Positions 15,735 to 17,059 of a DNA stretch of 50,164 nucleotides are shown here, in pieces (position 1 is the stretch's first letter; the number at the start of each line of letters is the position of its first letter). A program made the translations under genes and the position numbers. Source of the stretch: Anaerolineaceae bacterium (GTDB taxonomy: Bacteria; Chloroflexota; Anaerolineae; Anaerolineales; Anaerolineaceae); contig JAENZI010000017.1 of the NCBI GenBank assembly GCA_016841365.1, positions 1 to 50,164 of the forward strand. The letters run 5' to 3'. Below the pieces are notes generated by a model. The model was not told where the DNA came from and did no database searches. It worked only from the letters and a program-made list of their open reading frames with translations.

Positions 15735-15844
15735 TTATCAACCTGCCTTTTAAACTCTTGGGATGGCTCAAGCTTACCATAAATATCGCATTTTCAGTAA
15801 ACCAATCACACAAATGAACTTTGATGTTCTTAACATTCGATATC

Positions 15845-15873: not shown

Positions 15874-15879
15874 TAAATT

Positions 15880-16047
15880 ACCCTGCTGTGTTCGTGATGC
15901 AGCACACCAGTTTTGGGCCAACACCCTTCACGAGTGTCCGATCTCCATCCAGTGACGCGATAGACCTTGTGTCAAGGCGGATCTGATGGGTACGACTAAC
16001 CTGCTTATGCAGGTTCAAAACTCAGCGGCACACGGCACGGCGGGGTC
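15880..16047 (+). ncRNA. ssrS: 6S RNA (SsrS)
   Basis: 6S RNA mimics an open promoter and sequesters the housekeeping RNA polymerase holoenzyme. The 5' part matches the widespread non-enterobacterial consensus, CCTG-x-x-GTGTTCGT followed by CAGTTTTG and CCAACAC (15882-15923). The closing helix is complete: CCCTGCTGTG (15881-15890) pairs over ten positions, with two G-U pairs and no gap, with CACGGCGGGG (16036-16045). The 3' strand carries the conserved GGTTCAAAACTCAGCGGCAC segment. The length of about 168 nt is normal. It lies between thpR (divergent) and a lipoprotein gene. Confidence 0.88.
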
Positions 16048-16090
16048 GTTTGTTTATATCCCTGATATATCGTCTAGGATGCACGCTATG

Positions 16091-16120
16091 ACGCCCTGCA
16101 AAGGGTGTTATTTATTTTTG
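16091..16120 (+). terminator. Terminator downstream of 6S RNA
   Basis: A 7-bp stem (ACGCCCT at 16091-16097, AGGGTGT at 16102-16108, one G-U pair) with a GCAA loop of the stable GNRA class is followed by TATTTATTTTTG. It lies 45 nt after the 6S closing helix, so the primary transcript may be longer than mature 6S RNA. Confidence 0.75.
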
Positions 16121-16122
16121 TA

Positions 16123-16250
16123 AAAAACGAGGTGACGCTTTTTGAATAAGAATTGTCCGACACTCTTCTTACCCGTTTATGACGGCAGCTTTGGCTGATA
16201 GCCCCTCGTTTTTAGAGGTCGTCCTTTTTTAGGGGCGGCCTCGTTTCTTT
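16123..16250 (+). ncRNA. Unassigned structured RNA element with double terminator
   Basis: AAAAACGAGG (16123-16132) pairs perfectly over 10 bp with CCTCGTTTTT (16204-16213), enclosing about 70 nt with smaller stems (CCGT/ACGG near 16170; CAGC/GCTG near 16185). Immediately after lies a second strong hairpin: GAGGTCGTCC (16214-16223) pairs over 10 positions with GGGCGGCCTC, then GTTTCTTT. CCTCGTTT occurs twice (16204-16211, 16239-16246), so the 5' arm could choose between partners. I do not recognise a named RNA family. It could be a small RNA, an attenuator, or just tandem terminators. Confidence 0.45.
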
Positions 16251-16411
16251 ATCCCACAAAGATGTTTGATTAGGATTTGGGTTGTAGGTTATAATTTTCA
16301 AAGGAATATGACGGGCACACTAATATTTGGCTGACGCGATCCAGAAAAACTGCCAGTACAATAAGCAAAGACATCGGTTCCACTTGTGACATACTCAGAT
16401 AGTTGGTTGAT

Positions 16412-17059
16412 ATGAAACGAATTTTCCTCCTCTTGATTCTCACCTTGATATTGACAGGCTGCAAATCAGCAGCTTTTGCTGCTGACAGATTGCCTTGGGT
16501 CAGTAATGATGTCGTATTGTTTAAGGACAATTTTTCAGATCAATCGGGCGGATGGGCAACCCATCAAGATGCCGTCAGCTTTTCGGGATATGACTCAGGC
16601 GGTTTCAGATTAAGTTCCCAGGTTCCCAATTACCAGTTTTGGAGTGTGCCCGGGCTTAATTTTAAGGACTCCTATGTTTTCACCCGAATTGTCAAGCTGG
16701 GCGGACCGGATGATAACCTGATGGGTGTGATGTGCCGCTATCAGAATGAAGAAAATTATTATGCGTTAGTATTTGGCACGGATGGCTACTACGGTATTTA
16801 TAAAACTATTGATGGAGAACAAACGCTGATCGATCAAGACCATATGGATTTCAGCGAGGTGATCCAGAGGGGTAATCAAGAAAACCGGATCCATGCGGTT
16901 TGCAAAGAGAATCAGCTTGTGTTAATTGTGAACGATGTTGAGTTGCTGAGCGTGGAAGATGATTCGCTCACGCATGGTGATGTCGGTCTGATCATCGGGA
17001 ATTTTTCGCAACCCGGCGTGGATGTGCTCTTTGATGATTTTATTGTCCTAAAACCTTAG
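16412..17059 (+). CDS. Lipoprotein with jelly-roll (DUF1080-like) domain
   Basis: 215 residues. The N-terminal signal ends in the lipobox LTGC, so the mature protein is lipid-anchored to the outer face of the membrane. Residues about 30-215 look like a concanavalin-type beta sandwich (FKDNFSDQSGGW, ARYQNEENYYALVFGTDGYYGIYK-like strands, VLFDDFIVLKP end), common in Anaerolineae lipoproteins. The function is unknown; polysaccharide binding is a guess. TTG 16403 is an alternative start. Its stop is 5 bp from mtaB, so the two are probably cotranscribed. Confidence 0.7.
   Translation: MKRIFLLLILTLILTGCKSAAFAADRLPWVSNDVVLFKDNFSDQSGGWATHQDAVSFSGYDSGGFRLSSQVPNYQFWSVPGLNFKDSYVFTRIVKLGGPDDNLMGVMCRYQNEENYYALVFGTDGYYGIYKTIDGEQTLIDQDHMDFSEVIQRGNQENRIHAVCKENQLVLIVNDVELLSVEDDSLTHGDVGLIIGNFSQPGVDVLFDDFIVLKP

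Follow-up and report, generated by a model that had tools for sequence, protein, structure and literature searches.

Behind the 6S RNA gene of an Anaerolineaceae bacterium lies an element that is real, conserved, and unnamed. It is ordinary in kind and new as a member, its oddity being the broken 6S terminator. The element occupies about positions 16122 to 16250 on the + strand of the window, by which we mean the whole 50,164-nt stretch of DNA that was analysed; the genome of the window species is designated G000. As the best explanation we propose a lineage-restricted noncoding RNA gene of ~115 to 130 nt that would be made with 6S RNA and would act in trans, a joint claim that we consider about evenly balanced between right and wrong. 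The parts of the element and its neighbours are given in Table 1.

Table 1. Parts of the element and flanking features, in window coordinates
Feature	Position	Strand	Remark
6S RNA (RF00013), upstream neighbour	15877-16050	+	60.1 bits by cmscan (cut-off 46.4)
Sequence following the closing stem of 6S RNA, TCGTTTGTTTATAT	16046-16059	+	T-run interrupted, as in 7/7 carriers
Hairpin and T-rich tail between 6S RNA and the element, possibly a second 6S terminator	16088-16121	+	strongest among the 7 carriers
P1, 5' arm, AAAAACGAGG	16123-16132	+	
P3 hairpin, TAAGAA..TTCTTA, bearing the conserved block AGAATTGTCCGACAC	16147-16171	+	alignments A1/A2, consensus fold
Small variable hairpins, CCGT/ACGG and CAGC/GCTG	16174-16199	+	sequence unconserved
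P1, 3' arm, CCTCGTTTTT	16204-16213	+	CCTCGTT invariant in 7/7
Intrinsic terminator (12-bp hairpin at 16215-16242, then a U-rich tail)	16215-16252	+	
Promoter-like TTGATT-18-TATAAT downstream of the terminator, assigned to the next gene	16266-16295	+	1 site; 1.7 expected in shuffles
Lipoprotein-like gene, downstream neighbour, outside the RNA	16412-17059	+	

Structure and conservation of the element

The perfect 10-bp helix described in the initial annotation (P1, formed by AAAAACGAGG and CCTCGTTTTT) was present, with its arms 71 nt apart, and CCTCGTTT was indeed repeated 35 nt apart, with copies at 16204 and 16239. A second hairpin with a U-tract was found as claimed, GTTTCTTTAT lying directly 3' of it, but its stem is 12 bp long and not 10 bp. 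The placement immediately after 6S RNA has to be amended, as 72 nt separate the two, including a 10-bp hairpin (hairpin and T-rich tail at 16088 to 16111, dG -13.6) that is absent from the initial annotation. Between positions 15750 and 16450 there were three terminator-like sites, compared to 0.6 in shuffles; all are on the + strand, and one is the end of 6S RNA itself (16032 to 16049). The same interval held the single promoter-like site of Table 1.

Within a set of 101 related genomes, 6S RNA was found in 83, including 13 of the 16 genomes of the genus; among the latter it was not found in G002, G003, and G015. Seven of the 16 (7 of the 13 with 6S RNA) carry the element, namely, G000, G001, G004, G007, G009, G010, and G011, and in these carriers the spacing from the GGGG end of 6S RNA to TTGTCCG is nearly constant, at 107 to 111 nt. 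The carriers are deeply diverged, since in the other six the adjacent lipoprotein is 54 to 59% identical to that of G000. Three features were kept across these diverged genomes: the block AGAATTGTCCGACACTTTTCT, the CCTCGTT arm, and the terminator. In the block, A-G-A-(A/G)-T-T-G-T-C-(C/T)-G, and in CCTCGTT, the bracketed positions alone vary. Mean pairwise identity among the seven carriers was 0.90 for 6S RNA, 0.69 for the core (shuffled, 0.56), 0.64 for the terminator (shuffled, 0.55), 0.62 for the spacer between 6S RNA and the element (shuffled, 0.55), which is thus not wholly random, and 0.60 for the DNA behind the terminator (shuffled, 0.58). It might be supposed that the element is just an elaborate 6S terminator region, with tandem terminators and no function of its own, because CCTCGTTTTT resembles a terminator arm and because R1, the covariance model built from the seven carriers, scores bare stems of this sequence in two genomes, G146 and G440. 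However, tandem terminators need no TTGTCCG/CCTCGTT block kept where the neighbouring protein has diverged so far, and conservation of the core at least equals that of the terminator; we regard this reading as improbable.

The comparison with relatives for compensatory changes, which the initial annotation had proposed, revealed two-sided changes that leave the pair intact at 8 of the 11 terminator pairs, at 1 of the 10 pairs of P1 (in one sequence), and at 1 of the 5 pairs of P3. Over all 26 pairs, 94.5% of the pair cells were kept, whereas slid versions were 51 to 59% paired, and 21 cells had changed on both sides, compared to 8.5 in shuffles. At 16215 to 16252, the intrinsic terminator test found a G+C-rich hairpin, a U-rich tail, and these compensatory changes, and on the + strand the final hairpin is followed by U-rich tails. 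As a prediction from sequence, the terminator can be called certain. P1 is likely, since its 3' arm is frozen and its 5' arm has drifted mostly within G-U rules, and the evidence for the P3 hairpin is suggestive. Conservation and terminator compensation together thus support, at the sequence level, the initial proposal of a small RNA with a strong end.

Folding strength was less informative when single sequences were considered. A P1-like inverted repeat is not rare by itself, as four others (10 bp, perfect, with loops of 47 to 79 nt) were counted in the window. The fold of positions 16120 to 16215 had a z score of -3.05, which fell to -4.32 once the second hairpin was included, but the inside of P1 hardly beat shuffles in single-sequence folds (z = -0.43 in G000; mean of -0.96 over seven homologues), so the low values reflect mostly the outer helix and the terminator. 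For the core, folding strength hardly differed between the strands (mean z, -2.31 and -2.10), and in G010 the probability of P1 formation was just 0.26. The consensus fold, compared to column shuffles, gave a z score of -5.8 for the core and -12 for the core plus terminator; by part, the values were -3.1 for the inside of P1, -2.4 for the P3 region, and -17.9 for the terminator. It is conservation among relatives that raises the element above chance.

The terminator/antiterminator-like choice suggested by the initial annotation was not borne out as a conserved property. The second CCTCGT that would offer the P1 arm another partner is present in G000 and G011 only (2 of 7). The best alternative fold lay 4.9 kcal/mol above the minimum in G000 and 5.5 kcal/mol above it in G011; where the second CCTCGT is absent, the gap was 7.5 to 12.5 kcal/mol in G001, G004, G007, and G009 and 0.6 kcal/mol in G010, whose P1 is itself weak. 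A partner kept in so few carriers and gaps of 4.9 to 12.5 kcal/mol in six of the seven argue against a conserved switch, which could still operate in single species.

The same second partner bears on the possibility that the element is a riboswitch- or attenuator-type leader acting in cis on the lipoprotein and radical-SAM genes, its terminator serving as the expression platform. A closed structure does precede the terminator, the P1 arm has its second partner inside the terminator in G000 and G011, and the lipoprotein gene lies downstream of the element in all seven carriers. This lipoprotein-like gene has no Pfam match, has strong matches in 13 of the 16 genus genomes, and adjoins the radical-SAM gene wherever the latter was found (12 genomes); the radical-SAM protein, for which a Pfam match was obtained, is presumably MtaB-like. 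However, the next gene has its TATAAT-type box downstream of the terminator, and the box is there even in genomes that lack the element: by eye, all 12 readable genomes, carriers and noncarriers alike, have such a box before the lipoprotein gene (the sequence of G008 is cut by a contig end). The weight of the promoter listed in Table 1 comes from this recurrence and not from the shuffle count, and its position makes the element look like a unit of its own. Moreover, the second partner is kept in just two of the seven carriers, and six noncarriers have the lipoprotein/radical-SAM pair and no element (in G008, 6S RNA is on another contig). A leader function is accordingly improbable. In the interval behind 6S RNA, G008 and G006 have, by eye, the repeat-like sequences CCCTCTCCCTCGCC and GGGTGAGGG in place of the element.

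The initial annotation had also held that this is not a protein gene, and by eye no reading frame is common to the carriers. A TTG-started frame (TTG TCC GAC ACT) can be read in several carriers and might be taken for a short peptide gene, but, by eye, the frame differs widely in length, TAA or TGA lies directly upstream in G000, G001, and G009, there is no Shine-Dalgarno sequence at a usable distance, and nonsynonymous changes occur. We consider a peptide gene very improbable indeed.

Distribution and comparison with known RNAs

R1 scored the seven carriers at 60 to 90 bits (E value of 1.7e-11 or better), values that are partly a matter of construction. Elsewhere in the 16 genus genomes, matches stayed at or below 22 bits, two at E values of 0.1 to 0.5 being judged chance, and an unfiltered search for divergent copies in the six noncarriers returned nothing above 13.4 bits. 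Weak matches in G006, G012, and G015 consist of a TTGTCCG stretch away from 6S RNA and, by eye, without a good P1, and one in G046 is a bare stem; all were set aside as chance. Over 147 family genomes, genus included, R1 recovered the seven carriers plus G146, where the match is a bare 36-nt stem. Over 400 genomes of the phylum it recovered G000 and two weak matches, a bare stem in G440 and a full-length match of 26.7 bits in G231 that has little of the block in common and was judged chance. The family and phylum searches used stricter filters, by which weak copies may be lost. A pattern scan of GTDB contigs returned 13 stretches, of which R1 confirmed 4 (the carriers G001, G004, G009, and G011) and not the other 9; this pattern would miss diverged copies because it demands an exact 10-base arm that is absent even from the carrier G007. 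In IMG/VR, a single pattern match was R1 negative and the core pattern had zero matches, and the plasmids and phages searched yielded no match. As found so far across the family and phylum genomes and the GTDB scan, the element is confined to one genus, presumably Brevefilum.

The initial annotation could not place the element in a known family, and a covariance search against Rfam 15 led to the same result: in the window, gathering scores were reached by tRNA and 6S RNA only. Up to an E value of 5, the sole match of the element was that of its terminator to NsiR4 (RF02677), at 14.5 bits (cut-off, 40 bits) and an E value of 1.7; the likeness is limited to this weak terminator-hairpin match, the rest being unmatched, and is at the level of chance. 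Scans of the corresponding loci in the remaining six carriers returned 6S RNA and nothing else up to an E value of 1. Membership of the element in a known Rfam family was therefore rejected, cut-offs being reached neither in the window nor at the carrier loci. Nor is the element part of 6S RNA, as the RF00013 match stops at 16050 and the element has no such match up to an E value of 5.

6S RNA adopts an elongated, rod-like fold that opens into a central bubble. The element adjoins 6S RNA (SsrS) on the same strand, perhaps in one operon, but its fold is a closed multibranch shape followed by a terminator. It more nearly resembles the bacterial small RNAs that end in an intrinsic terminator, being short and intergenic, with variable helices, a single loop block that is conserved, and a hairpin plus U-tract at its end, but it stays below every Rfam cut-off. 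Candidate structured RNAs have been described from the same phylum, including the Chloroflexi-1 RNA (RF01698), listed for Chloroflexus aggregans (Weinberg et al. 2010, PMC2864571); neither the window nor the element matched this RNA or the other motifs of that study. Searches of the open-licence literature returned nothing joining 6S RNA, Anaerolineae, and small RNA and no small RNA work on Brevefilum, the transcriptome papers dealing, by their titles, with other subjects.

Link between the element and 6S RNA

For 83 6S genes, we recorded the longest T-run within the 12 nt that follow the G-run of the 6S stem. A run of at least four was seen in none of the seven carriers (longest, 3 or less), in 5 of the 6 noncarriers of the genus (the exception being G012), in 32 of 40 other family genomes, and in only 10 of 30 order-level genomes. 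Fisher's exact test gave a P value of 0.005 within the genus and of 7e-5 for carriers versus genus noncarriers and family combined, both values resting on a post hoc cut of 4 in related sequences and being uncorrected for kinship. Since a T-run usually follows the G-run of the 6S stem in the rest of the family, 6S RNA may end on its own stem there. A strict hairpin rule applied to the spacer between 6S RNA and the element identified a strong terminator in G000, a weak one in G001, and none in the other five carriers, and the noncarriers G008 and G013 also have a hairpin terminator behind 6S RNA. The rule is not exhaustive, as it found five of the seven final terminators and missed those of G007 and G009; in the G009 spacer it also missed a short CCCT/AGGG hairpin before GTTTTG that was seen by eye. 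On this evidence, read-through from 6S RNA is favoured in most carriers, the window species being ambiguous, and the spacer hairpins of G000, G001, and G009 argue against read-through in those genomes.

The strong hairpin in G000 and the weak one in G001 could instead point to an independent small RNA with its own promoter within the spacer, separate from the 6S transcript. By eye, TATGAT in G011 and G004 and TAAAGT in G007 lie ~12 nt before the element. However, no sigma-70-type -35/-10 pair was found before the element in the G000 spacer, five of the seven carriers have no separating terminator by the rule, and the spacer is little conserved relative to its shuffled counterpart; an independent transcript thus appears unlikely. 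Pairing of the loop with 6S RNA was likewise considered, through a GTCGGAC in the 6S RNA of G011 and G004, and was rejected because, by eye, it is not kept in the other carriers.

6S RNA has a structured RNA neighbour in several lineages, as judged from glmS-ribozyme-like RNAs that lie directly behind it in other family genera (at least four), at 28 to 33 bits (cut-off, 37): L018 (1745 to 1957), L035 (1265 to 1472, - strand), L041 (1735 to 1946), and G078:C99:10438-10647 (- strand). In L018 and L041 the next ORF after this RNA is glutamine-synthetase-like. In three aligned examples, GACGAGG, GCGGAUGCC, and GACAA are largely kept, whereas the consensus AGCGCC reads GCGGC. The genome G000 has two glmS-ribozyme matches above the cut-off, at 47.7 and 37.6 bits, located at L196 (G000:C14:141888-142107, + strand; next ORF, 400 to 1752) and L195 (G000:C3:168403-168620, - strand; ORF, 3 to 1985, complement). 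Named by eye from the translations, one match lies at the start of a glmS-like gene and the other precedes a glutamine-synthetase-like gene. To our knowledge, a glmS-class ribozyme before glutamine synthetase would be unusual, and a literature search yielded no paper on such an arrangement by title or abstract. At least one glmS match at an E value of 0.01 or lower was present in 112 of the 147 family genomes, and 42 had one above the cut-off.

History and proposed role of the element

A midpoint-rooted tree of the lipoprotein and radical-SAM proteins was built for 13 genomes, G001 being without the second protein. The midpoint root had carriers on either side, and noncarriers fell at three places (G005 with G014; G013; and G006 with G008 and G012). 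Behind 6S RNA in the noncarrier G005 (L138, G005:C1:19900-21200), a 33-nt stretch is identical to G011 at 26 of 33 positions, lies ~14 nt closer to 6S RNA than in G011, and lacks the CCTCGTT arm. Its alignment score was reached by few of 200 shuffles with G011 (1), G010 (1), G007 (5), G004 (8), and G009 (8, at another place) and by many with G000 (98) and G001 (154). The stretch looks like a decayed copy of the element. Together with carriers on both sides of the root, it points to ancestral presence, so that the element was probably in the genus ancestor and was then lost two or three times, the loss in G013 depending on the root; transfer between species would be an alternative history. A further proposal is that Brevefilum has a two-RNA operon in which, owing to a weakened 6S terminator, the RNA-polymerase-binding 6S RNA and a new regulatory RNA at fixed spacing share a single transcript, the U-run of the 6S terminator returning when a lineage loses the second RNA; we advance it tentatively and consider it somewhat doubtful.

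In the preferred reading of a noncoding RNA made with 6S RNA, P1 would close the molecule, the hairpin loop would expose the conserved UUGUCCG, and the intrinsic terminator would form the end. The RNA would probably be a second cistron, transcribed at least partly by read-through past the weakened 6S terminator; cutting or trimming would follow cotranscription, and a promoter of its own may contribute. Its most likely mode of action would be in trans, with unpaired UUGUCCG and CCUCG pairing with mRNAs, and its activity would be linked to the growth-phase dependence expected for 6S RNA expression. A search of the 16 genus genomes for sequences antisense to the loop (15 bases, 2 mismatches) returned 39 matches, including the element itself six times, versus 62 for the backwards control. 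Given this lack of excess, any targets would pair over short stretches or were missed by the search.

The small RNAs of Anaerolineae are seemingly little covered in print, and the element is a candidate to test in this phylum. If the proposal is true, a lineage-restricted RNA tied to 6S RNA would illustrate how a new regulatory RNA can originate by riding on an RNA gene already in place.
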